Assembly (NCBI GenBank): GCA_000467715.1 | Contig: AJFK01000355.1 | Span: 20,277-84,276, forward strand | Reading direction: 5' to 3' | DNA from: Hysterium pulicare CBS 123377 | Lineage: Eukaryota; Ascomycota; Dothideomycetes; Hysteriales; Hysteriaceae | Length of the DNA stretch: 64,000 nt | The notes under the pieces: model-generated | What the model was told of the DNA's origin: nothing | The model's database searches: none | What the model saw: the letters and a program-made list of their open reading frames with translations, nothing else | Made by a program: the position numbers and the translations under genes | In this document: one piece after another, positions 4,376-58,967 of the stretch | How the letters are laid out: every line of letters starts with the position of its first letter | How positions within the stretch are numbered: the stretch's first letter is position 1

Positions 4376-6808
4376 CTAGGGCTTCGCGAAGAAGGACCGA
4401 AACCTATAGTACTTGTAAAGTCGCTTGAGTTCTGTCCTGTCCCCGTTATAGAGCCTTCGAAGTTCTGTTTTTCGAGAATCAAAATCGTACGTCCTGGGAG
4501 CCACTTCAAGGCCTGACTTCAGAGCTGATAGATTCTGCTTCCTTTGAAAAAGGGATGATCGATCTAGGAAGGCTTCAACATAATCAACAAGGTTATAGCG
4601 TACTGCAAATGAGAAGAATTGATCGAATTTCTCCTTGTCGGTTTTAAGATTGAAGACATAGCCAACATTATCGAGATAAATCTCCTGAAAAATCTGATTG
4701 ACCTCAGTGGCCTTGCCAATTCGCAGGGCATACTCAAATGACCATTCAACCAGATTGCAGAATTCGTCATGCTTGGAGCCGGCGGAAGGGACTCGAAGAT
4801 CGCTTAAACACTTCATTTGCCAAAGCAATGAATTAGCCCAAGCTCTGTTGGGATCGAAGAAATCGTCGACTGCAGAGGTTACTTTCTGCCAGATACGTGG
4901 TGACTCCAAAAAATCTCTGGCCGTTCTGTGGATATACTGGACATGGCCTTCAGAGGACACCTCCAGCAAACCCTTGTTGCAAGAGTTCACCCGTCGCCGC
5001 ATCATTGACTTTTTATCGAGATATTCGATGTCGGATAAGGGCAAAATTGCAGCTCTTGCCGCTGATCCATAATCATCGTCATCTGCAAAGTACAAAGCTA
5101 TCAGAGACGGGTAGGCATTTGTTCTGAGAAGGTGGAATAGTTGACAAGCGCGCTTCAAATAGAATGGTTCGATACTGTCGAGGAGCTTCTCAAACAGCGC
5201 CTCCAGGTCTTCCGGCAGAGAATCGAGACGTGACTGCAGATCTGTTATACGATCAAAATTCGATAGCCCTTGCATAAGTGAGTCTACCACCAGGTAGACC
5301 CAAAGGAACACCCCGGAAGCTTTGTCGACGACATTGCACACAAGATCGTCCGCGGCTTGAGGGTTTTCCTTCATTAGCCGTTTGTATTGGTTGTGCTCAT
5401 TGAGTTTGTTGGACACATAAAGCTGGATATCTCTACAAGTTAACTGTTGCAGAGTGAGGCTGGGCCGATTTTCAAATGCATCCTCAAAGACTGGCCACGG
5501 GCGACTGGCCACACAGACTTTCAGGTTGGTATGCTGTGTAACGTCGATGATAAGCTTGATTAATTCAGTATGGTCCCCATCAAATTCATCCAGGCCGTCA
5601 ATAAGAAGAAAGAACCGTTTCGATTGGTCAGACGTGAGAAGTTTTAAAACGCGCGTAAGCTCGGGCCAAGTGAAAGGTTCACCGCCTCCCCTGAAGGAGA
5701 GGTACTGTCGCCAGCGGTTATGAAACAGCTGCGTGATTATTTCAACTTTACCGTATAGTAGTTCGTAGAGCAGGGATTGCATGAGGCCATCTCGGGACAT
5801 CTGCATGACGGTTCCGGAGTTCCAAAAGAAGAAGCCGGCTTTGAACAGCTCGATAGAGCCAGCCCATGTTTCCAGTAATGTGAACGTCCGAGGGTCTTGA
5901 TAAAGGTAGTTCATGAGAGTGGATTTCCCAGATCCAGGTTTCCCGGTGATCCAATAGATACTATTGCGATTGGTGTCACGTAACCAGTCAGTGAGGTCAT
6001 CCCATGACCGCTCGTTAGAGTCCGAACTTTTGAAGATCCACTCGAACGTATCGCGGTGAGCTTGTCTGATTGACTCCTGTCGGTCTGGTCTGCCGCGAAA
6101 ATCAAGAAGAGCAAGGATCATCCTACTAAAGCTTTCCTGCAATTGGGATTCGTTGGCCGTGTCGAGATGCTCAGAGAATGAATTCAGGTCCTCTTGTTTG
6201 CTCGGCTGCCAGTTGTTGGCGGCTAGTGCATCTAAAACTTCTCGTTGCCAATTTGCACACCCGGGAGCAATAGTGGGAGTCCGGGTTCTTCTTGTGGAAT
6301 GGTCACTGTCTAGGCGTTCTCTAATTGATGGTCAGCATGAATCACCACGTAGATTATTTGAAGGGGACTAAACATACCGAAGGGAGACCAGCAGGGCTGT
6401 ATCAACCTGTTTTCTAATATTGTCAAGTTTCTGCTCTAGATTCTTGACATCTTTAGCAGTCCAGACCGTCTTCAATGCTTGACGAACGCTCTGCCACTTC
6501 CGGTTAGGTCCTTTGCGCGCAAGACCCTGAAGTACTTTAACGAGTTCGGTGGTCACGTCGTTACATTCTCGACCAAGCTTCTGTAACTGTTTATCCGCCG
6601 AGGTAAGTTTTTGTCGATTCTGTCCATTGTCGCGCAAAGCGATATTGAGATCGTTAAGATTCTTCGCTGTATCTTCTAAGAGAGCATGCTGTTCAAGCAT
6701 CCCATCCGCTGACGTATAAACCTCATGAGTCTGTGAGATCAATCTGCCGGTGAAATCGATGACTTGAATGATATTCGAGGCCAGGCCGAGGGCGCTGATG
6801 GGATCCAT
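4376..6808 (-). CDS. NACHT-domain NLR-like (STAND) protein
   Basis: Predicted 791-residue STAND NTPase in two exons: 6808-6378 and 6320-4376. The 57-bp intron starts GTATGT and ends ATTAG. Joining the exons keeps the frame (…VSLR/ERLDSD…). The N-terminus (MDPISALGLASNIIQVIDF) matches the helical domain that commonly precedes fungal NACHT NTPases (SesA/PigL_N-like). The P-loop GKPGSGKST is at about residues 270-278 and the Walker B segment LLIDGLDEFD at about 382-391. Both are intact, so ATP or GTP binding is expected. After the NACHT and winged-helix regions the protein ends in about 200 residues without obvious ankyrin, WD40 or TPR repeats, so it lacks the usual ligand-sensing array. Such proteins act in fungal non-self recognition and programmed cell death, but the effector role here is inference. 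An in-frame ATG three codons upstream (6817) is an alternative start. Confidence 0.85.
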
Positions 6809-7487
6809 GATGAACAAATTGTCAACAGAAAAAGGTTACAGCCATCACACGGCGAAGGAAGCGGGGCTCCCAAGAAAAAAAAATCTTTCAGCGCGGCTGA
6901 GGCTGAGGCTGAGTTCAGGCAGCCGTTTGCCAGTTGGCTGCCGCGCGAGGCTGAACGAGGCTAACCGTAGCATATTTGCTTGGACATAGAAGTTGCTCGG
7001 CGTTATTGCCTAAACAAAAGTTTGAGTGCTCTATAAGATCAATGGAATCTGATGAAAGAAGAATATTACACGCGCGAGATCATGCTTGGAGTTCGTGGGA
7101 CGGTTGACAAAAGGTATGCGTTTGACGAAAAGAACATGGTGCTTATGTAAACGTACTAAGTAGCGCGTAAATGGTCTAGCGCTGAAGCTACTCCGTATTA
7201 GGTTTCAGCTCGGGAAGCTGTCAAACAACAAAGTATGCTGGAGTATTCGGATATCATTACTTTGCTTGATCAAGTTATGCTATGCTTCTAGCATTATCGT
7301 ACATATCTCAGAAATAGAAGGAATCATCAACATCCAAAGAAATTCCATGAAAGTCCTTTCTCCGACCCATGCATCCAGGAAGCAAGACTAGATGCTCCAA
7401 CTCCGAGATATGCATATATCATTAGGTATTCCGCTCTCAGAGCTCATATACGTTGACATGTTCTTATCGCTTTGTCCAGACGTGCCT
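6809..7487. other. intergenic, no gene seen
   Basis: This is the promoter region of the NACHT gene and the 3' flank of the MFS gene. A short GCTGAG iteration occurs around 6900-6920. No gene is supported. Confidence 0.5.
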
Positions 7488-14044: not shown

Positions 14045-17000
14045 CTAGCAGCTATGGGATACCTGCCTGTGCCAAGGTTCTACCTGCGTCGACGCTGAGC
14101 TACTGCGGCTGCCGTTTCGTGCGTCGCTGCTGCTCGACAACACCTGCCTGTTCGTCGATTTCCCCCACCGCCAGGGTTTCTCCAACCGCGGCGTGATTGA
14201 CCTACAGCGTCCCGTATCCGACCTCGAGGATTTCATCCAGTCATGGCTGTATTTTGGCGTGTTGAGCGAGTGGTGCGGCAAGCAGCTGGATCTGAACAGG
14301 TTCGCCGCAATTGACGGCAACGGCGATGCGTTCGTCAACTTGGACCGCGTGCGAAGTCTCCTAAAGGGTAAGTCTCTCGCACATCCGGCTGTCGCACCCA
14401 AGCTCACTTTCTACAGCCTCGAAAGGCGCAAGTCGAGACTGGCATGCTGATGACGAGCCTACTGGCGACCTCGAAAGCGGTGACGCTGAACAGCCTCGAT
14501 CAGACGTGTTAATGGAGCTTCGCTGTTCGCCAGCACGCCGGCACCTGCTAACGCGCAGCGACTGTCTCGTGCGCGCGGCGTATTTAATCAACTCACTCGA
14601 GTCGGTGCTGCCGTTGGGCTGCCCGAGCCTCACCCACATAGTCCTCTCCGTCAAGGTTTTGATCCAATCGCTAGGTGGCAGCATGGGCCACCCAATCATC
14701 GAGGGCACTCTGGCTTACCCAATGTCTACGGTGCTTCTGGAGGAGACAATGCTGAGAAATGGCTGGTGCAGGCACCAGTGGAATCGCATTGGCCGCTCGC
14801 TTGACTTCGAGACCGCCCATTACTTGTCCCTACTGCCCCGAAGGACTCCGGGAATTACTCACGAGTCTTGCACCGCGGCAGTGTGCTCCGCGTGGAGCAG
14901 CGGGACCAGCGGTGCCCCGAACCATGCCGATCCGACTTGTAGGTGTCGCATGATCAGTGTGCCATATGAGGAAATAAGTGCAATAATCTAAAAGGAACAC
15001 ATTCCTTTGGTATCTATTCACGAAGACAAAGGACGCTGGCGCATGAAGTGGCATGCTTGGGATGGGTGAGTGTTATCCCCTCACGTGCCAGCCAATCTAA
15101 CCCTCTAGCTTCACGCCGTTCACTGCCATATCCCATGTCTGGGCTGATGGACTTGGGAACAAGCAAGCGAATGCACTTCCAGAGTGCCAGCTTCGTAATC
15201 TCCAGGCGATCCTTGAGGCAATACCTATACACTTTCGACATCGCCACAATCCTCTCAACGTCATTCTCGCTCAACGAAAGGTTCACTATCTCTGGTTCGA
15301 CACATTTTGCATACCCGTACGGCCAGGGTCACAGTCTTCAAACCTCGACATGGTCAAGCAGATGGCGATCAATAACATGAGCCTGATATACGCCAACGCC
15401 TCTCCCGTGCTCGTGCTGGATGCTGAACTCCGGAGGCTTTCTTCTGGCACAAACCGAGGAACACTGATGTCTTATGCTAGTTTCTGCGGTTGGACGACCC
15501 GTGCATGGACGTTCCAAGAGGGGAGTCTTCCGGAGTCGGTCGTATTTGCTTTATCTGACGGGATCTTTGACCCTTCACAGCAGGAAGTGCATTCTGCCCG
15601 ACGCCCCACAGGGACTAATGTGGATCTTCTACTGTTTCCGTTTAAACCTTCTATCCGCCAACGCCTCGTCTCCCGCTGGTATAAGCAACCACGTGATTCC
15701 CCGGGTAGAGAAGATCGCGGACACCAGAACAGAAACATCGAACAGCACCTTCGGTCGTACTGGTCTGAGGATCAGTTTTCAATCTGGCCAGACGCCGATA
15801 GGTCGCGGAAGGAATGGGAAGGCGCGATGGTGCGGCGTCTGTGGAATAAGCTAATCCAGCGTCACACGTCGGAAGAACGAGATTTGCCCCTAATTTTAGC
15901 CAACCTCCTCGGTTTCCGAGTGCTAGACGTCCTTCAGTCGGATCGGCATCTGGAAACCATAATCGGAAGCCTCGAGTATATTCCAGTAGGACTCCTTTAC
16001 AATATCGGAAAGCGTCATTGCTTATCACCTCCGGCGCCGGGAGTGACATCCTCGTCTCAGTTTGGCACTGGCGGGGAAGGTATCGATGATTTCAAGCTCC
16101 TCAACCGGGTCCCCGAGGAGATCAAAGGCTCAAGCATCCCAGATGGGCCAGTCTTTCTGGCAATTGATTCAACCCTTCGACTGCACAACCCGCACTACGC
16201 GCGATATTCAGAATCCTCGGCATCGATATTCACTTCCTATATGATAACTACACCCCCAGCGAGATTTGTTCTCAAACACTCAGCGGATCCTGCCACACTG
16301 TACAAGGTGACTGTTGATACGCAACCTGACGATGGCATGGTGAAAGAGAAGCTCGGCTCAATAACGGACGGGTTATGCTTCATGATTGAGTCTACTAAGA
16401 GCGGTCCACAGCAACACCAGGACGTCCTCAGCGGAGCCGCTCTTGCAATCGTCAACGAATCATCTTATGAATTGACCACTATGACAACGCCATCCGCGTA
16501 GAACCAATACAGGCCTGGGAGGCTGGACAGGACATCCATGATCTTCCCGTTTTCCTCGCAAATTACTCCAACCCAGAACTTATCGTGGTGCAATATTGTA
16601 AGTTATCAACCTATTTCGAGGACCAACTAACTCGTACAGATGCAGAGGAGCTTGGAAAAGTGTCTAGCACGATCCCCAGGAGCATTGCTGGCCCCATGCA
16701 CGGACAAGTGCGCACGCTCGTATGGGGAGCAGTTGTCAACGCCATCGTTGTCGCCTCCAGCCTTTCGCTCGGAATTGAAGGCTCCGGTTCAGTGTACCTC
16801 AAATGTCTCGGTGCTTGGGTGGGCTTTTTGGCAAGCTATGCTATTCTGTTCTGGCTTCTCGGGCCCAGGCTTTCGCGTAACCGGCTTCAGGCCTATCTAC
16901 GGTCTGCTTCGCCCAGTCGGATGCGCCGCGCAACCCAGTTCCTCCAGGCAGTGGCCACCTATCCGTTCATATCAGGTTTCGCGGTTTTCGTTATTTGCAC

Positions 17001-36269: not shown

Positions 36270-36899
36270 ATGAAATCGCTCCGGACCGCGCTCGACATCT
36301 TCTCAGCTGCTGATTTCGACATCAACACGAATGTTCCTCCACCTCTTGAGAGTCAGAAGTGCAGCTACTGTTGGGAGAGTTTTGGGGCAAATCATCCAGA
36401 AAACCCAAACAAGGTTCCTTGTCAGCCAATCGGCCTCCTTCCTTGCAATCATCTCATCGGGAGAGTGTGTTTCGACAAGTAATGTCGCAGCGGCAACGAC
36501 CTTTGCCCAATATGCCGAGTCCACCTATCGAAGAAACCGCTCACTCGATTAAATGAGTACAGTTTTCACAGTATTACGTCGAGGATTTGCGAAACGAAAT
36601 GGTCTAGATTCCATGATACTTCTTGACGGTCGTCGGAATTCTTTAGCTTGCCGTGGTCACTTGCAAGACGGAAGGATTACTGCAAGCGAAGCCTGTCTAC
36701 TTTGGGTCGACCACATCCTTCGCATTTCTGTTCTTCTCCCAATGAAGTCTTTCTATGCTATGATAGCCATCATTTTGATCAGGGACTTACGGATCTGTTC
36801 TTGTTGCATACATGGAGTTTTATTCTACTTCTCAATATTGCGGCCTCTTCATTGGTTTTGATCGGTCTTTTCTGCCTCGCGGTTTCCAAGAAGGTTTAG
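36270..36899 (+). pseudogene. dead copy of the RING-membrane family
   Basis: The first member of the tandem family. The start MKSLRTALDIFSAADFDINT is clearly homologous to the next two copies. The RING ligands C31, C34, C51, C59 and H61 are present. A TAA at codon 71 interrupts …CFDK*CRSGNDLCPIC…, where the paralog has Leu/Ser-Leu, and the rest of the finger continues in the same frame. Further on, HLQDGRITASEACLLWVDH lies in another frame and the C-terminal LNIAASSLVLIGLFCLAVSKKV in a third. It carries one nonsense and at least two frameshift lesions. It lies directly downstream of the broken HET gene. Confidence 0.8.
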
Positions 36900-37301
36900 G
36901 GAGAGTGAGAGGTAGAGCTCATTGACCGGAGTCTCTTGTTTTACTCGGTAAACGTATGAACATGAGTCATACTGAACAAATAGTTCTGGATATTTTCCCC
37001 CCTCTCTAAGCTTAGGTCTCATTTTTTGTGAGCGTTTGTCTCGCGTCTCGTCTGCATACGGGAGGTTGCCTCGGGCGGACGAATCAAAGACCCCTTCACC
37101 ATGCTTGTTTCCACAATGCATACATCGGAGAATCACACCGCCAGTCTATCATAAACGTCCCTAATTTCCAATCCAAAGTTTCACAATATCATAACCATAT
37201 CTACCGCTATCTCCCTTCATGGGAAGCCTCCCAACTCTCGGATAACCGGCTCCTCTTGCAGTGTGCACTGCGATTTTTCAACCCTTCAACCAAGCTTCCC
37301 A

Positions 37302-38168
37302 ATGCTATCGCTCCGCGCCGCTCTCGATAGTATCAGGTCCGATGACTTCGTCACAACGACCGATGTATCTCCTCCACAAGATGAATACTGCTTCATCTGC
37401 TGGAGCCCATTCCCAAGTTCGGACGATACGGATCACGAAGCCACTTGCGAAGCTATCGGCTTTCTACCATGCAAGCACCTCATCGGGAACCAATGTTTCA
37501 AACGCCTCTGCGAAGATGGAAACAAAACTTGCCCAGTATGCAAGGTTTGTTTGACAAAGAAGGATCGAGCTCGTCCCAGCACATTGAGCTTTCTTGGTAT
37601 TATGACGAGGATCTGTGATTCGCGTTGGTTCGCTATATTCGACACATTGTACAACGTCACTCCCTCCGAAGAAGACACATATCCACTTCTCGTCGAGCGT
37701 CACCGGAAGAGGATGCAGGACGGAACCATTACAGCGGGCCAAGCATTGTCGGTCTGGGTCAACCACGTTTGTTCGGCCTGCCTGTTCTTGCTCCTATTCT
37801 GTGGATACCCCGTTCTCCTCTACCGCACCTTCTCCCATCTCTGTTCTCTCGCTTGGTACAAATTGTACGACTTATTGAACCCAAGCCCGAGAAACTACCA
37901 GGAAACCTATATTTTTGGCATTACATACATCATATTAGCAATCCTAATAAGACTCTATTACGCCATACTTCGTTACGTCAAGACGAGAACCCTAAAAAGA
38001 GTGGCGGGCTTCCTGATCTTAGCATATGTCTTTGATCAGTCCACTGGCTTATACTTCGGGGATCTTTGGGGCTGGTTGTGGTTGGCGAATTTCGCAGCCT
38101 TCCTGGTCGTACTCGCTGGTTTGCTTTGCTACGCTGTTACTAAGAACAAGGTCCAAAGAGCCGAATAA
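37302..38168 (+). CDS. variant-RING multi-TM protein, copy A
   Basis: Single-exon gene, 288 residues. Residues 1-29 carry the family leader (LSLRAALDSIRSDDF). A RING-like finger follows with ligands C30, C33, C57, H59, C65, C70, C77, C80 and an extra conserved C49. Spacing after the CxH is x5-C-x4-C, wider than in a standard RING, and the usual fifth-ligand position is Gly62. A conserved middle segment (LGIMTRICDSRWF, QDGTITAGQALSVWVNH) leads into about four membrane helices (roughly 150-180, 195-225, 230-250, 255-280). The tail is short and basic. A membrane-anchored E3 ubiquitin-ligase-like role is an inference from the finger only. The start was chosen because MLSLRAALD aligns with the ATG of the neighbouring copies. 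Confidence 0.8.
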   Translation: MLSLRAALDSIRSDDFVTTTDVSPPQDEYCFICWSPFPSSDDTDHEATCEAIGFLPCKHLIGNQCFKRLCEDGNKTCPVCKVCLTKKDRARPSTLSFLGIMTRICDSRWFAIFDTLYNVTPSEEDTYPLLVERHRKRMQDGTITAGQALSVWVNHVCSACLFLLLFCGYPVLLYRTFSHLCSLAWYKLYDLLNPSPRNYQETYIFGITYIILAILIRLYYAILRYVKTRTLKRVAGFLILAYVFDQSTGLYFGDLWGWLWLANFAAFLVVLAGLLCYAVTKNKVQRAE

Positions 38169-38581
38169 TCTGACCGTGGGTCTCTTGGGGGGTCAACTTT
38201 GGTCGTGCTCAACAAACCGCTTGTGGATTAGGGCAAACGGGTATTATCATATGTTGTGTTCGGACGGTCTGTCTGCGTCTACCACTTTCTTTACTACCAG
38301 CCTACAAGGTCCAGCCAGACTCGGTACCAGTCGTTTGAGCAAATTGCCATCCTTGAGGTTGTTCCGAAAGTAGCATGTAAAATGACACCTCTCCAGGCTT
38401 GTACGGTTATGAAAGTCGGTTGTATGACGGATACTGACACCCATCGTGGTGTTCGTTGTTCAGTAATGATGAAAAGTATCCTGAAAGGGAGTGAATGAAA
38501 TGATTTATTTGGAAAGTATCAAAACAATGTTACGAACCTTAGAGCTTCAACACGGTCTACACAATGAATCCACAGAATACC

Positions 38582-38590
38582 TATATAAAG
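38582..38590 (+). promoter_or_regulatory. TATA-like box of copy B
   Basis: TATATAAAG lies 131 bp upstream of the copy B start. Similar TATA-like words precede copy C and both small Cys-rich genes. The 38169-38720 spacer otherwise holds no gene, only TCACTCCTC/GATCACT iterations near 38630-38680. Confidence 0.4.
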
Positions 38591-38720
38591 CCTACGCACT
38601 CCTCCATTTGTTCCTCAGATTACCCCTCTGATCACTCCTCTGATCACTTCTCAAATCATCAGTCCTCGGATCACTCCTCCCGGATTTCCCCCTCGAATAC
38701 ACAATTGTCACCTTGGAAAA

Positions 38721-39563
38721 ATGCCCTCCCTTAAGGTGGCTCTCCATAACCTCACAAGCGACAACTTCGAGGTCACAAAGGATTTCTCGCCCCCTGCAGC
38801 AGATGACAGATGCAGCTACTGCTGGCGGAATTGGGGAACGAAGTATGATGAAGATGACCCGAACGAAATACCCTGTCAACCTGTTGGCCTTCTCCCATGC
38901 AAACATCTTATAGGCGAAGAGTGCTTTGATAGCTTGTGCCTAAGTGGCAATGATCTCTGCCCGGTATGTAGGGTGCAGCTCACGAAGACGCCCAAAGTAG
39001 CATCTGGTAGGTTTAGCTTCGAGTCTATTCTGACGGCACTCTGCAACACCACACAATTTGAAATGATGGATGGTTTTGCGGAGGAATTTGACCAGATTTC
39101 GGATCTGGGTCCCTACCGCGATAAGCTCCAAGATGGGTCTATAACCGCTCGAGAGGCGGGGTGGATCTTCGCAAATCATGTCCTTCTATCCCTAGGCGTG
39201 CTCCTCGCAAGGTTCATCTTTGACATTCCGTTATTTCTATTCGATAGAACTCGGTTTTCTCTATCTCCAACTCCTGAGTCCGCTACTTTTTGCATGAAAC
39301 TCTATGTCCTTTTGGTACTTGGGGGCTTGTTAATGGAATCCTTTTCCGTTCGCCTTAGACATTCATCCCTCTGGAGAAACATGACTTTCTGTCTACGTCA
39401 AGTCGCAAGGTTGACTTTGTTGTCTACTCCTTATGCTGTTAAGGTCAGTCTGGTAACCAACTATATTTATTTTGTGCCTTACCTCTCCATAGTAGTATGT
39501 CTACTTTACGTTGCGGTAACAAAGAAGCAGAAGTTAGCCAAAGGGCTCAAGAAGAACGAGTAG
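38721..39563 (+). CDS. variant-RING multi-TM protein, copy B
   Basis: Single-exon gene, 280 residues, the closest relative of the dead first copy (PCQPVGLLPCKHLIG). Finger ligands are C31, C34, C60, H62, C68, C73, C80 and C83 with an extra C52. The spacing is the same as in copy A, and Gly65 again stands where a ligand is expected. The middle segment (ILTALCNTTQFEMM, LQDGSITAREAGWIFANH) is conserved. Four hydrophobic segments follow, ending in YLSIVVCLLYVAVT and a lysine-rich tail. No signal peptide is evident, so the finger should face the cytosol. Function unknown; ubiquitin-ligase activity is possible. Confidence 0.8.
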   Translation: MPSLKVALHNLTSDNFEVTKDFSPPAADDRCSYCWRNWGTKYDEDDPNEIPCQPVGLLPCKHLIGEECFDSLCLSGNDLCPVCRVQLTKTPKVASGRFSFESILTALCNTTQFEMMDGFAEEFDQISDLGPYRDKLQDGSITAREAGWIFANHVLLSLGVLLARFIFDIPLFLFDRTRFSLSPTPESATFCMKLYVLLVLGGLLMESFSVRLRHSSLWRNMTFCLRQVARLTLLSTPYAVKVSLVTNYIYFVPYLSIVVCLLYVAVTKKQKLAKGLKKNE

Positions 39564-39973
39564 ATCCAGCCTATTTTGTAGCAGAATATAATAATTACAA
39601 GAACGAAATTAAATCACATGACAAATTGTGGATTTTAGTAAGTGATTCCAAGTCCCTAAAAACCTCGCTCCTATCTCCGAATGCTAAACTTCTCTACGCT
39701 AATGTTAGTGCCGCTCATCCATTGAGAGTTATGATACTATTTTCAGCAGTATTGGAGCAGTGAGAATGTCATCACCAGGGAGCAAGTTCCACTCGCCCGA
39801 CCTACGTCTTTGTCAAACTCGTATCTTCACTCCACAAGCCTCGGTTCACGTCGACTCTGACTCAGGGCGTGTGACAGAATATGACTCAGTGAATCTATTC
39901 ATTTTCTAGAACAATTTCCATGATGACGATGAATCATGTCCCGGGTGAGTTGAACGGGAACCACTCGGTAGCA

Positions 39974-39980
39974 TATAAAA
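39974..39980 (+). promoter_or_regulatory. TATA-like box of copy C
   Basis: TATAAAA lies 97 bp upstream of the copy C start, in a 513-bp spacer (39564-40076) that holds no other gene. Confidence 0.4.
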
Positions 39981-40076
39981 GCATTATACCTTCTCTCCTA
40001 TTGTTCTCTCTCAACCAATCCCGATTACCTCCCCGCGAAAGCATCCCCCATCGTTCTCTACGACTGGACTCCAAAC

Positions 40077-40979
40077 ATGGCCTTTCCACAAGGTGCACTC
40101 AATGCTATTACGGTTGCCGTAACTGACGATATTCCCCCACCACCAGCGTATTCTTATTGCTACCTCTGTGCTCGCGAATACGGTATGAAGCTAGGCAGCA
40201 TCGACCCATATGAAGTCTGCTATCCCGTTGGCCTTCTTCCATGTGGGCATCACTTAGGGACGGAATGTTACGAGCAACTCCATATGGCAGGCGTAACCCA
40301 CTGTCCGTTTTGCCAGATTCCACTACTCCAAACCCCGCAAGTCAGCAACTCGCTCTTTTTTTCCATCCTCACAAAAGTTTGCGAAACGCGGTGGTTTCAA
40401 TGCGTCGATACATGGGTCTGTCAGTGGACCGCCGGCCCCTTCAGGCTCGCAAATGGCACTGCTAATCGAAGAAAGGTCACACTCGGTGGCAGCATAACAT
40501 TCAAGGAAGCTGTCCCGGTGTGGGTCAATACCTTGTCACTACTTTCGCAAATGGCCATCACTTTCTTCTTGATCACTTTGGTGGTTGAATTCGCCGCCTT
40601 GGCATGCACGCTCTTTATGGCTATATCAATTATCATGGCCACGAAAGCGTTTCCGCAGATCCATGATACAGCAAACCCGATAGTGGCTCAGCTCCTCGGA
40701 TCAACTTTAGTTGTGTGGATGCTGTTTCTAACCTTTTGTGTAACTAGGCGGACGCTGAAGGTATTATACGTTGCAGCTGGACGGAAGTGGACAATGATAA
40801 CATGCTTCGAGCTTGGATTGGTCATGTGGTTACCGTTGGGCTGGCAACCTCTCTTTGCATTATGGATCGTGATGGTAGCCAACCTTGCTGCCTATGGTTT
40901 GGTAGTAGCTGCACTCCTAGCATTCGCGATGTTGAAGAAGAGGCATTGGAAAAAGGTCATCCAGAAGCAGAGGGGGTAA
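40077..40979 (+). CDS. variant-RING multi-TM protein, copy C
   Basis: Single-exon gene, 300 residues. Finger ligands are C28, C31, C56, H58, C64, H69, C76 and C79, plus C48. His69 replaces the cysteine used by the other copies at the same position, a ligand-preserving change that supports a real zinc site. Gly61 stands at the canonical fifth-ligand place. The middle segment is ILTKVCETRWFQCVD and GSITFKEAVPVWVN. At least four membrane helices follow, one of them long (about 165-205), and a basic tail ends the protein. The leader differs from copies A and B (AFPQGALNAITVAV), so it is more diverged. Confidence 0.8.
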   Translation: MAFPQGALNAITVAVTDDIPPPPAYSYCYLCAREYGMKLGSIDPYEVCYPVGLLPCGHHLGTECYEQLHMAGVTHCPFCQIPLLQTPQVSNSLFFSILTKVCETRWFQCVDTWVCQWTAGPFRLANGTANRRKVTLGGSITFKEAVPVWVNTLSLLSQMAITFFLITLVVEFAALACTLFMAISIIMATKAFPQIHDTANPIVAQLLGSTLVVWMLFLTFCVTRRTLKVLYVAAGRKWTMITCFELGLVMWLPLGWQPLFALWIVMVANLAAYGLVVAALLAFAMLKKRHWKKVIQKQRG

Positions 40980-41683
40980 GGGCTTTTGGGACTGACTGCG
41001 GAAGAAGCAGGCGTAGAGAAGCCCGTCACTGTTCCAACGCCAAGGACGTCCGATGGGCTGTAAGTCCGATCTAGCATAAATACCTTCCCACGTGATCTTA
41101 CTTGTAGCATCAGAATCCCATCTGTTTTGTTTTATTATCCCCATTATCTTGGTTCCAACCATGCGCATTTATCAGTCTATCGGAATGCGGCCACTTTCTT
41201 TGGATGAATCCGCCCTTTCGAGAAGACAACATTGTGAACGACTGAACCCACCACGACGGAACCCACCGTTATTAATTCCGGCATATAAAGCATGCACAAC
41301 AATATGAACAATGAATTGCACTACTCCAACTCACATACCTGATAATCAAACGGTTTGTTTCCCGTTATTCTTTCAGTGAACACTAGTTGTGGAAACTTTC
41401 GACTGTGAAGAAAAGTTTGTTTAGTGACTTCACAGCTCATAGGCTGACTCTCAGTCGTACTTGGTGTATAAACTGCGTGTGAATGACAGCCCTGCCTTTC
41501 CATTTAGCAAACTAAAGTGATATACCTTTATGTGCAATGTCCATATTAAGATTTACGCAGTCCACCTCTGCTCTACCCAACCCAGACATCCACGACAACC
41601 CCTTATCAACTCTGTAAGTTACCATCCATTTCCTGAAGATCTATTAGTAACATGGCAGAAATAACCTCCGATACTGGACCGCG
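40980..41683. other. spacer between copies C and D
   Basis: A 700-bp spacer. TATAAAG occurs at 41284-41290, rather far (394 bp) from the copy D start, so copy D may have an unseen upstream exon or a long leader. A 60-codon minus-strand frame shows nothing recognisable. Confidence 0.4.
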
Positions 41684-42379
41684 ATGGCTCCGAACGAAAC
41701 CACGAACTGGAAGTCCGACACAGGACTTTCCTTTCGTGCCAGCTTCCTCCGCGCGCTCCGACACCCGATGAACGCGTGTGATATAACCCAGACCACATTC
41801 GTCGATGACACCTGCTTTATCTGCAAACGTAGGTTTGGTTTCGTTGAAGAATTGGGCGAGGTGCCGGAGCATGCCTTTCGGGTACCAGGATGCGGCCATA
41901 TTGTCGGCGTTCACTGCCTCCTGTCTCATGTTGACCCATCGCCGGAAATGGTCGATCGCGGGGTTGTACCAATGAACACTTGTCCTTATTGCTCAACAAA
42001 CCTGTTTGATTGGCGTGTGGGTCCTGTGGAAGATCAAGTCCAAGATCAGGTAGAGGAGCAACTCCAGGGAGAGGTTGAGGAGCATGTTGCAACGGAAGTT
42101 CGTAAAGCTCCTAAAGTGCGTATTCTCCTCTCCCGAGATCTTCAGGCAAAGATTAGACAAGAGGCTGAGCGACAATTTGGCGTTGAACTACCCCCTGACC
42201 AATATGTTGGAGTGACGGTCCAGTTCCGTGCGCCCCCTGGATGGGCCATTGATGAGGATGGAAATTGGCGGTCAACTGAGAGGCCGCCCGGATATCTTGT
42301 TCGAAACGCAATCCCGCTGGGAGTCATCTTGTTTATGTGTGTCTTCAGAGTAGTGGCATACTACTTCAGATATCAGTAA
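41684..42379 (+). CDS. RING-like single-TM protein, divergent family member D
   Basis: Predicted 231 residues. The finger keeps C44, C47, C70, H72 and C78 with the same CxH-x5-C step and the Gly (GCGHIVGVHC). It then has H82 and a final C100-x2-C103 after a longer insert. The middle is unlike copies A-C: a repetitive acidic coiled stretch (EDQVQDQVEEQLQGEVEEHV), then a region with PPGWAIDEDGNWRSTERPPG. There is one C-terminal membrane helix (about 205-228). The shared finger geometry and position suggest common origin with the array and a changed C-terminal half. The start is taken at MAPNETTN; an upstream ATG in another frame gives only a short peptide. Confidence 0.7.
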   Translation: MAPNETTNWKSDTGLSFRASFLRALRHPMNACDITQTTFVDDTCFICKRRFGFVEELGEVPEHAFRVPGCGHIVGVHCLLSHVDPSPEMVDRGVVPMNTCPYCSTNLFDWRVGPVEDQVQDQVEEQLQGEVEEHVATEVRKAPKVRILLSRDLQAKIRQEAERQFGVELPPDQYVGVTVQFRAPPGWAIDEDGNWRSTERPPGYLVRNAIPLGVILFMCVFRVVAYYFRYQ

Positions 42380-53922: not shown

Positions 53923-56900
53923 TCACCATGCCTCCACTTCCACGTCGAAGAGTTTGATTGCATCCAAGGCCATCCCTCTCATGCGCACATCTTCGTTCTC
54001 GTTCTCCTTCCAGCTCTGCACAATCTTCCTTGCTCGTTCTACTACTCTGCCGTCGTGCGGCTTTTGAGCGTGGCGAAAGAGCGTCTCGGCAACTTCAATC
54101 CGCAGCAGGTCGGCCTTGGTCAACCAGGAGAGTGTAGTGCGGCTGATGTCGCCTACAACACACGCCACTAATGCCAGGTCTTCCTGCCGACACTTCAATG
54201 CTGCTTCTTTGACTTGCTGCAGTTTTTCGTGATACACCCCGCCGGCCATGTGCCCCACCAAACCAGTCAGCTCCTTCGCAAACCGCTCACACTTCTCGGT
54301 AATACTACCCGGCCAGGGCTGTGAAGGATAGCGGAGAAGCCAAAGTCGCAATGCAAACGTTGGAGGGAGAATTGCAGGCTGCCGTTGAGTATTTCGCTGC
54401 CAATCTCGTGTCCGCATGCCCTCAATATGTTGAATCATCCATTCAACGACAGGTCGCACATGCACCATCCATGCCATCCGTCTGTCAGAACCCACTTCGT
54501 GGAGTGGGGGCTCCAGGTGCTGAGTGAAGCGATTCCAATGCATGAAACGACAATCGGTTACTTGCAGAAGCGCTCTCGCCTGTGCCAAGATGAGACCCTG
54601 TAGCTGTTCGACGGACATTCCACCCAGCGCCTTCTGCAGACCATATACCTTGTAAAGTAGGGAAGGGATCGAATAGCCAAACACGATGTCGCCTCCGCGG
54701 TTGAACAGCGCAAGCCAGTAACGTCCTGCATTCGAGCTGCGAATTTCTGGACTCCCTTCAACAACTGCCTTATTCAATGCCGCAACTTCTACGCTTGGCT
54801 TGATATTGCTAAGTGTGTATTGTGTGTACTCCTCTAAGATCGACGCTGGAAGATCTACTGCACTGTTCCGGAGCAGCTGCACAAACACCTCGGCGTGAAG
54901 GGGTACGGAAGGTAGATCCGACCCCGTCAATGTTGATTGGTGTCTTCTCAAAAAGACTTGCAACCAGCGAGCCGTGTTTGATTTCAACAATTCGAAGATT
55001 GGCAGTATAATCTTTTCCATCGTGTCCCTTCGCCATACGAAGTCGTTGGGCATGCTCGAGAAAGCGTCGATCAGAGCCTTCAGTATCGGAGGGAGGTTGC
55101 CCGTACAGCAACCGTCGTCGATTTCTGGAGGCTCGCCGCTTTTCTCAGCCTCAAGCCATTCTCCTTCAGTCAGCGGCTGGCATCCATTCATGCTTGCGGC
55201 GATGGGTATTGCCCCTTCAAGCACTGCAAGAAGTCTTTGAGCCGGGGCCTGGGAAGATTCTTCTCGGCAGTTTGCAAGCATTGAAAATATGCTCTCAATG
55301 GTCGCTACTCGGATATCTATGTGAGACGAATTTCGAAATAACTCGCTGAGAGCATCTATGGAGATGCTTTCTGGCACAAATTCTGCGTTGTTCAATAGTT
55401 GCGCAAGGTATTTGACCGTCGTGACTTTTACATATGGCATCGGTCTGGAATTACCATTATCTGCTTTTTCCCCCTTCGAAGATGCTTGTTGTCTCAGTCT
55501 TGAGATAATAGCCGTAGTGAAAGATGTGATTAGCTCTTTTGCCTGGCTGGCCGGAAGCCTTCTCAAGAACGTCAATGAAAGGAGTCTGCGATGCCACGAG
55601 CTTGCATCTGGTCGATCCATGACCGTCTTAACAGCAAATTCTGAAGCGAGCTCTGGGCGATCACATTTCGTAAGTAGCTCAAGGAGGCCGTAGGAAATAC
55701 GCTCGTGGTCGATTGAGGATGGTGAGTCCGCCGGAATATTGGAAAGCGCACCTAAGGACGATTTGGTAAGCTCCGCAAGAAGCTTAGGAGGTACTAATCT
55801 GATATGTCGGCCAAGGGTCTGCAGCGCTTTCTGTTGCTGTTTTTCATAGCGATTCATAAACTCGTCGTCGAGGTAGAGAGCCGGATATCGGACGTCGGAT
55901 CTCGAAGGGAATGGCGAAGTAAGAAGTCTGGAAGTGGCTCCATTTCTGCAGTCCAGATAAAGCAGGGCTGCGACGATTTGAGCCTCGTGCACTGCGATTG
56001 AACTGCTTTCGATGTTCCATATCCCTTCTTGTCGACAGATCTGGCCCGGAACTTCTGCTTTAGGTGCTGCGAATCGTGCAGCAACCGTATACGAGCCCCA
56101 CCCTTCTGTGGCTAAAGCACAATCAAGATACGTTGGTGGGAGAAGTCGCGGTTCAATTCCTGGCTGTTGAGGAGGTGCAGGATTCCACTCCATTGTCTCA
56201 GATCGGTCGACATCCTTCGGCAACAGTGGGTAGGTCTCTGTGTTTTTCGCAGAGAATCTATGTGCGAGCCCTTCGAACCTTGAATAATATGGCTTCCAAA
56301 ACCGAATTGCTTCGTCTCGATTCATACGGTTCTTACTAAGCTGGTTGACTGCGTACGTCCAAGCGAGCATAGGACGATCTGTTCCCTCAGGCTCCTCTTT
56401 GTATGATTCAGGTATGTATATTCGCAGTGCTGCACTGTAACTATCGACGAATTGCCCAATGGCGGCTCTGGTATCTTCCTCTTTAGGAACCGGCGCAAGG
56501 ATGGTTTCAGATTTCTGAAAGATGACTTGATTCGAACGGCCTGCCAGGTAGGGCGTCAAGGTCTCTGGCGGGAATATTGTAGTGTAGAAAGGGCCAGTCA
56601 AATACTGCAGTGCCAGCCCTCGGGGCCATGGAGGCTGAAGTGCTGCAGCGGCTGGAAAGACTGTGGGTCGATATTCTTCCCAAACTTTGTCTCTCGCTTT
56701 TGCTAGATTGTCCAGAAATTGATAGGTAGACGGCAAGGCTTCTTCAAGTGAGATACGCCCTATGCCTAATGGACCGTACACTGAATTCATTTTCAATGGC
56801 TCATGACCACTCTTCAAACCCTCTTTTTCAATACCAATGAGTAAATCCAAGCTATCCTCCCAAAGTATCTTGTAGATGTCTTGGTCTGAAAAATTCAAGA

Positions 56901-58967
56901 ACTTGCGGAGCGCATGAGACCGGGATTCCCGTACTTCGACGACTCTTCGAAACAAAGATAGCGGCTCAGACCAATCTGGCAGGTAGAATGAAGGCTCTCT
57001 CAAAGCCAGAGAAGCAGTCTCGAAGAAGAGTCTCAAGATCTTGTTGCCCTCGGTTACTCGGGAATGTAAGTCCATCAAATCCAAGTCTCTAGAAACTCTC
57101 TCCGGTACGCCACACAGGAGTGATATGCCTTCGGTGGTGGTGGTAGATTGTTGCGAGAAGATGGCTTTAACCGTAAGCTGTAATTGAATCAGCATCACTT
57201 AAAGCAGTAGTAACAATGCGGTGTTAGATGTTACTCACCGGGTCCCGTATGAAACGGCGAGCCCAAAGCAGAGTGTCTCCGTATAGCTTTAGGGATCCGC
57301 TGGCGATGGCATAAAATAATGCAGACTTGGCGTAGAATGTACGGTCTGTCTGCTCTCTGCTAGACGATGCCTTCTTTTTTCGCTCCTCCACGTCTTGATT
57401 TTTCAGAGACATTCTTCAGATCTAAGAGAGGGTGCTCACCTTCAAAAACATCTTGCTCCTCTCCCAAGGTTAGAAGAAGCAAAGTAGAATCTGTAAATGA
57501 TGACCGCGGATCTGTCGGCAATGACAGTATGGTATCGCCATACTCTAAAGCGAGGATATCATCTTCGGGACTACAGGCCCGTAGTCGTTTGAGTAATCTC
57601 AATGCATCCTGGCCGTCCATCTGATAGAAAAGGTCACATGGCCACCGCTTTATTTTTAGTGTCTTAAGATCTTCTTCAATGTTCAGGTCTCTCCCATGAT
57701 TTCCGTCACTCAGAAAGCACAATCGCAGCAAGGGATACCGCTGAGTCTTGCGAACCGTCGGAAATAGCCGCAGAAAGTCGTGTACAGTCCAAGATGATTT
57801 CGAGTGGGCGATTTGAAGAGTTGTAACTAGCTGTGTCTCAAACTGTTCCGGATGAAAGGACCAAGAGTATGCAAGACATTCAATGAAAGTGCACTTTTGA
57901 AAACACAGCTCTTTCGCAGCATTCGGATGTGCTTGAAGATAGATAACCACAAGATCAACGATTTCCTTAATCCGCTCCCAGCCGACCCTCCTGTTCCTCG
58001 CCCTTCGCATGAGTGGATCGACTAGTTGCGGCAAGAAAAAATGGTCTGGAAACGTATGATTCTCGGCTGCCACAAGCTTGTTCAAAACCTCCACGGAAAA
58101 TTGCATGGAAGCAGAAAGACCTCGTACGCTGCTAGTACTTGGAGGTGAGCGCTGAAGTAAAGCTGGAAGGTGAAACGAGAAATCGAAATCATCTCCAGGA
58201 ACCTTTTCGAAAAGTTCTCTTAGGCAGAGTTCCCTAAGTAAGTCGGGATGATACTCCAGGAAGAGTGATTTCTTGACTTCGTCCCACGGAGTTTGCACAT
58301 TGAAGGTCAACAGCAATTTGGTCACAAATGCAGGGGTGCACGATGGTGCAAGGTGTGCATACAATTGAGCTAATAATCGTTCGTCCGGATTCGTGGAGGG
58401 AGCTTCAGGAAACAGTCGTGGAAGCAATGCTTTCAAAAGTGTGGTGATCTTCTCGCGTTTTTCGGCGGCGTCGGTACCTTTCGCGCATCGGCCAATGACT
58501 CGCCCAAAGAACTTGACCTGAAGAACTGAAAAGTCATTCAGTATAGAGAGCAAGCCTTCTGTACCACCAAGACCATCCCACGTTTTCCGCCAACGAATGC
58601 TTCTGAGCTCTTTGCCGAGTTGCTTGGTAGCTAATCTCCGAACCAGGATTGACCAGTTTTGCTGAAGAGCGTGTCTAAGCACATTTGCTGATTTCGAAAG
58701 TCCAATCCAAACGTAAAATACTGTAGGTGGGAAGGATCCGTCTCGGACGGATGTGAGAATAGTTTCTGAAACAATATCGACGGAAGTCTCGGATGAGACC
58801 TGACGAAGGTAATGAGCTAGTTCGGGAAAATTTAATCGACGTATAACATCATTATCCAAGTATTTAGCCATTGCGCAAAGTGTGGTCAGGCCTTTATGGT
58901 TGCGGGAGTCATTGAAGTTGAGCTGAAGTGGATAAGACACATGAAGCCACGAAAGAGCACGGACCAT
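53923..58967 (-). CDS. conserved large helical protein, unknown function
   Basis: Three exons (58967-57440, 57393-57239, 57177-53923) encode about 1645 residues. The introns are GTGAGC…CAAG (57439-57394) and GTGAGT…TACAG (57238-57178), and both joins keep frame (QDVFE/DVEERKKK and FIRDP/LTVKAIFS). The whole protein is alpha-helix-rich with ARM/HEAT-like spacing of leucines and no catalytic motif that I can see. There is no signal peptide and no convincing membrane helix. The central part has WPRGLALQYLTGPFYTTIFPPETLTPYL and WNPAPPQQPGIEPRLLPP, which look like conserved surface segments. A frame this long without lesions implies strong selection. The start MVRALSWLHVSYP is the first ATG in frame; further upstream exons cannot be excluded. 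Confidence 0.75.

Follow-up and report, generated by a model that had tools for sequence, protein, structure and literature searches.

Genes and features of the locus

The window, a stretch of 64,000 nucleotides of Hysterium pulicare DNA (G000:C276:20277-84276), was taken from an assembly of 37.2 Mb in 596 contigs. Between positions 36270 and 42379, on the + strand and arranged head to tail, lie four intronless open frames, termed here A to D, and one broken copy (Table 1). The row of related same-strand genes with one dead member that a sequence-only reading of this DNA had described was thereby confirmed. A search for repeats of at least 25 nt flanking the copies returned a single family, that of the finger, besides a small number of short, weak pairs.

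Table 1 Features of the gene cluster; positions are those of the window.
Feature	Position	Strand	Description
Dead copy	36270..36899	+	Finger in first frame; 3' end approximate
Copy A	37302..38168	+	288 aa: leader and RING-G finger, then middle segment and four hydrophobic segments
Finger of A	37389..37544	+	Residues 30-81
Hydrophobic segments of A	37767..38138	+	Residues 156-279; prediction
Copy B	38721..39563	+	280 aa, layout as A
Finger of B	38811..38969	+	Residues 31-83
Cys52 codon of B	38874..38876	+	Candidate stand-in zinc ligand, in C-Q-P-V
Gly65 codon of B	38913..38915	+	Ligand 5 place
Copy C	40077..40979	+	300 aa, layout as A; most diverged of A-C
Finger of C	40158..40313	+	Residues 28-79
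Gene D	41684..42379	+	231 aa: RING-G finger, charged middle, one C-terminal hydrophobic segment
Finger of D	41813..41995	+	Residues 44-104; His where A-C have extra Cys
Hydrophobic segment of D	42311..42367	+	Residues 210-228 by hydropathy; model helix 204-230

Three other genes or frames were noted in the window. A SesA-like frame and, after it, a frame of NPHP3_N/NACHT type with DUF7791 form a fungal STAND-type gene at 4379-6835 on the - strand, a HET (heterokaryon incompatibility) domain scored 33.9 bits against a cut-off of 22.5 at 15101-16498 on the + strand, and an open frame of 1091 aa at 53926-57198 on the - strand had no Pfam match at E<=0.01.

All five copies of the cluster carry the arrangement C-x2-C ... 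C-x-H-x2-G-x2-C ... C-x2-C, in which seven of the eight Cys/His ligands of a cross-brace are in place and Gly stands at the fifth. This is the pattern given for RING-G, or C3HGC3 (PMC5240574, PMC3166285), and by its ligands the finger of A-D and the dead copy is classed as RING-G. RING models were the Pfam best matches of all five copies, with 17.3-23.1 bits against a cut-off of 27.3 when single proteins were searched; in the genome search, with neighbours in frame, A (28.6) and the dead copy (28.9) exceeded the Pfam cut-off, and B, C, and D fell below it. An AlphaFold2 model of B made from four sequences was of low confidence (mean pLDDT 50.2, pTM 0.30) and had its best blocks in the finger, where it has two strands, residues 54-57 and 63-65, and then a helix over 66-75. 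Foldseek with this weak model placed RINGs at the top, RNF13 first at E 0.038, and none at E<=0.001. A single-sequence model of D (mean pLDDT 43.1) contained a confident C-terminal helix and no finger. Structure prediction, which had been proposed as a check on the sequence-only reading, gave a RING-like finger of low confidence in B and did not recover one in D; the Cys/His variant-RING finger of that reading agrees with the RING-like scores and the weak B model, and can be refined to RING-G. Sequence searches of the PDB, for which B and the L036 RING-G protein served as queries, returned RING ligases, with no Gly-5 finger in the five alignments listed.

Descent and predicted membrane topology of the copies

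Copies A, B, and C can be aligned through finger, middle segment, and tail, with 258 aligned residues between A and B, 252 between A and C, and 149 between B and C. The dead copy is alignable to them up to its lesions, a TAA at codon 71 and a TGA at codon 119, and then onward in another frame; its middle segment and hydrophobic remnant are read in a frame other than that of the finger. A tree was made of 35 rows, comprising the 34 RING-G fingers counted below, among them the dead copy and C31:112095 with its in-frame TAG, together with C188:111342, which lies outside the 141 matches of the genome search. It joined the dead copy with A, B, and C in one clade, with support of 99/100. Judged from these sequences, the four are true paralogues, duplicates of one gene, in line with the local duplication and loss proposed earlier, and their divergence together with the dead copy is consistent with gene turnover. 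The rows adjoining the clade (from C578, C160, C596, and C238) have C-x2-C-W in common, and the forks leading to them (83/74 and 92/100) were drawn open, the bootstrap being not settled. Among the best-scoring candidates of genome searches with A, B, and C, matches beyond the cluster spanned the finger region only, so that, at the sensitivity of these searches, the tail was found nowhere else in the genome.

Repeat-induced point mutation was considered as the killer of the dead copy and rejected, as the first 354 bases bore no sign of it: TpA/ApT was 0.42 versus 0.69 for the window, and (CpA+TpG)/(ApC+GpT) was 1.26 versus 1.27.

Hydropathy analysis gave 4, 3, 5, and 1 hydrophobic segments in A, B, C, and D, respectively. 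The prediction for A places five Lys/Arg between the second and third segments and three at the C terminus, which fits four helices with both ends in the cytosol (N-in/C-in). The same basic loop and end were found in C (five and seven Lys/Arg), where the fifth segment adjoins another and leaves the number of segments ambiguous. The three segments of B were those at threshold, and its end is likewise basic (six); the B model contained long helices in its low-confidence parts. The single segment of D ends three residues from the C terminus. Most likely, then, A-C are membrane proteins with both ends cytosolic, as predicted, and D is tail-anchored. The sequence-only reading had put about four C-terminal helices in A-C and one in D; the hydrophobic tails of that reading are supported by hydropathy.

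The origin of D had been attributed to a tail exchange, that is, D would be a copy of an A-C gene whose C-terminal half was replaced. Its position and strand and a weak leader likeness fit such an origin, and a tree with all five genes as one clade was not rejected (p-AU 0.325). A leader had also been thought common to all, and is so in A-C; beyond the finger, D shares with A-C at most a weak likeness of that leader. The best match of D in the genome lies on contig C188 (E 6.6e-6), while none of A-C was matched by D at E<=10 in the genome search, and similarity between D and the dead copy did not rise above shuffles. The long spacer between ligands 6 and 7 of D is also found in C188:111342, and a clade of D with C188:111342 was likewise not rejected (p-AU 0.375). 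The tail exchange was therefore not borne out and we consider it improbable; D is most likely a neighboring tail-anchored RING-G gene of uncertain descent.

RING-G fingers of the genome and a candidate zinc ligand

Matches to zf-RING_2 at E<=1 numbered 141 in the genome, and none were obtained in 14 control genomes. Fifty-seven of the 141 lie no more than 5 kb from another match, in 18 groups, where about 5 would be expected at random; this number includes a pair on C100 that was counted as two though it occupies one open frame. Of the 141 matches, 116 were read first, 8 were read later, and 17 were never read. The strict core C-x-H-x2-[GHC]-x2-C was present in 102 of the 124 read, leaving out partial hits, other finger shapes, fingers with Asp at ligand 5, and C188:117418. 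RING-G made up 34 of these 102 fingers with the core and Gly, His, or Cys at ligand 5. When any residue was allowed at that place, 98 of the 116 matches read first had the core, with His in 38, Gly in 30, Cys in 28, and Asp in 2. Plain decay of ligand 5 to Gly is unlikely because only these four residues were found there.

The clusters differ in type. Among the 116 matches read first, RING-G accounted for 5/5 in C276, the contig of the window, and for 5/6 in C31, and His was at ligand 5 in 6/8 of C290 and in 5/5 of C440. Hydrophobic segments after the finger were seen in three (C180:119234, C188:111342, and C188:112530) of the 20 RING-G frames listed outside the window.

Three of the other clusters were described separately. 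G000:C188:106500-118896 (L014, L005) is a RING-G cluster on both strands that holds the best match of D, and has two genes with hydrophobic C-terminal segments. In G000:C31:103000-114000 (L074, L115) one strand carries seven RING matches in tandem; six are RING-G, and one of those six is broken by an in-frame TAG. G000:C290:1-33343 (L073) is a 33-kb contig with 13 zf-RING_2 matches, mostly RING-H2 among those read, which have in common an N-rich spacer before the last Cys pair.

In many of the RING-G fingers an additional candidate ligand is present upstream. In A-C and the dead copy it is an extra Cys, 8 residues ahead of ligand 3, and in D a His, 7 residues ahead of it. The corresponding motif, [HC]-x-[PA]-[VIATFM], was present in 23/34 RING-G versus 3/68 canonical fingers. 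In the first set of 95 strict-core fingers the count was 20/30 versus 3/65, a difference whose Fisher probability of 2e-10 is not clean because the motif was first spotted by eye in the same data; with the window cluster removed, 16/25 RING-G fingers of that set had the motif. The seven core fingers read later had it in 3/4 RING-G versus 0/3 canonical (p 0.11 alone). A looser count in the first set, accepting any His or Cys at -4 to -11, gave 23/30 versus 15/65. When fingers were anchored on [PA][VIATFM], His or Cys stood two places before the anchor in 20/34 RING-G versus 2/27 anchored canonical fingers, and at each of the five remaining places between -6 and -1 in only 1 to 4 of the 34 RING-G. 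In the B model, Cys52 would lie beside Gly65, a placement read from strand order alone. The upstream Cys or His could supply the eighth ligand.

It is also possible, though we would not call it probable, that Gly and the upstream His or Cys were simply inherited together and the latter plays no part in metal binding; three Cys plus water or another group would then hold site 1 of the RING. On a tree of 90 fingers, 33 of them RING-G, the RING-G fingers were grouped, with 14 changes versus 26.7 in shuffles and 0/500 shuffles as low. One independent pair was well supported and another 14 fell on branches without support; common descent may therefore account for much of the association between Gly and His/Cys. 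The strict motif is moreover absent from 11/34 RING-G fingers, several of which have Asp, Glu, or Asn at the place, residues also seen there in canonical fingers. Coinheritance without a role in metal binding does not readily account for a place that holds His or Cys, both of them ligands, in strongly diverged fingers and differs between Cys in A-C with the dead copy and His in D, while the other places tested rarely hold either residue.

We tentatively propose a distinct zinc coordination, in which ligand 5 has become Gly and its function has moved to a His or Cys at the start of strand 1. As part of the same tentative proposal, fingers of this kind would have radiated here into a major RING class that is tandem, tail-variable, and partly membrane-bound, resembling a recognition or conflict family.

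Predicted activity and comparison with known RING proteins

The places at which a RING contacts its E2 are a hydrophobic residue before ligand 2, a Pro after ligand 7, and an Arg or Lys, the linchpin, after ligand 8. The place before ligand 2 is occupied by Ile, Tyr, Leu, and Ile in A, B, C, and D, and the Pro after ligand 7 is present in all five copies. At the linchpin A has Lys, B has Arg, C has Gln, and D has Ser, which makes A and B better candidates for activity than C and D; Arg or Lys is also found there in the dead copy, and in 28 of the 35 RING-G rows overall. The Trp common in RINGs is absent in A-D and present in 20 of the 35 rows. For A-D we infer E3-like activity, as the sequence-only reading had suggested. 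In the proposed mechanism the finger would face the cytosol and bind two zincs, with the upstream Cys (His in D) replacing the missing ligand 5 at the first site. The finger would then recruit an E2 and ubiquitylate targets in or near the membrane that are selected by the remaining, variable part of the protein, with A and B likelier to be active than C and D.

Alternatively, the proteins might not be ligases themselves but RING-like adaptors or partners in the membrane, whose role would be to hold an E2 or another RING, or to block it. The linchpin Gln of C and Ser of D, the missing Trp in A-D, and RING scores below threshold would agree with such a role, but the linchpin residues of A, B, the dead copy, and most RING-G rows, as well as the invariant Pro, speak for ligases. 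The human RING-G protein listed by accession in the fly survey cited below is presumably RFWD3, according to an abstract a ubiquitin ligase, which also argues against adaptors, and we regard that role as rather unlikely. The reading we prefer, with moderate confidence, is that A-C and the dead copy are a local tandem family within a genome-wide expansion of RING-G, and that A-C are membrane proteins resembling E3 ligases.

RING-v ligases such as MARCH and Doa10 have an N-terminal RING followed by membrane helices, and A-C likewise have an N-terminal RING-type finger before the predicted membrane part. Ligands 4 and 5 are Cys and His in RING-v (PMC5240574), whereas they are His and Gly in A-D. 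A RING-v identity was rejected on this ligand order, and no RINGv model was among the Pfam matches of A-D. Hrd1, gp78, and the PA-TM-RING protein RNF13 are membrane ligases whose RINGs are among the highest-ranking Foldseek matches of the B model. Their RING is placed after the membrane part, whereas the finger of A-D precedes it, and Pfam matched no PA domain in A-D.

RING-G itself has been reported as rare. It accounts for 1/731 in B. rapa (PMC5240574), 7/1272 in wheat and 1 in Arabidopsis (PMC8169666/PMC6118397), and 6/139 in fly, where they were described as an independent recent expansion in a paper that also names one human RING-G protein by accession (PMC3166285). In a survey of 29 species, two of them fungi, land plants had 0-2 RING-G and the other species no more than 1, and the RING-G group of Arabidopsis is given there as missing from fungi (PMC8169666/PMC6118397). 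That survey's maximum of 1 versus the 6 of the fly paper indicates that methods matter. The contrast between zero to seven per species in these sources and 34/102 here, some with hydrophobic tails, is large but not like for like, since our count came from zf-RING_2 matches, a different sieve. Among the papers listed from the open-licence literature, none described an expansion of RING-G in a fungus.

The presence of at least 34 RING-G fingers in one genome makes it possible to ask if a RING stays functional when one of its zinc ligands is relocated, and what leads a fungus to amplify these genes; the membrane subfamily, a few paralogues that share one finger and diverge in their tails, lends itself to experiment. 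The RING-G pattern of A-D is that of the plant and fly proteins in the sources above; here it occurs in a family with predicted membrane tails, within a genome where RING-G is abundant.
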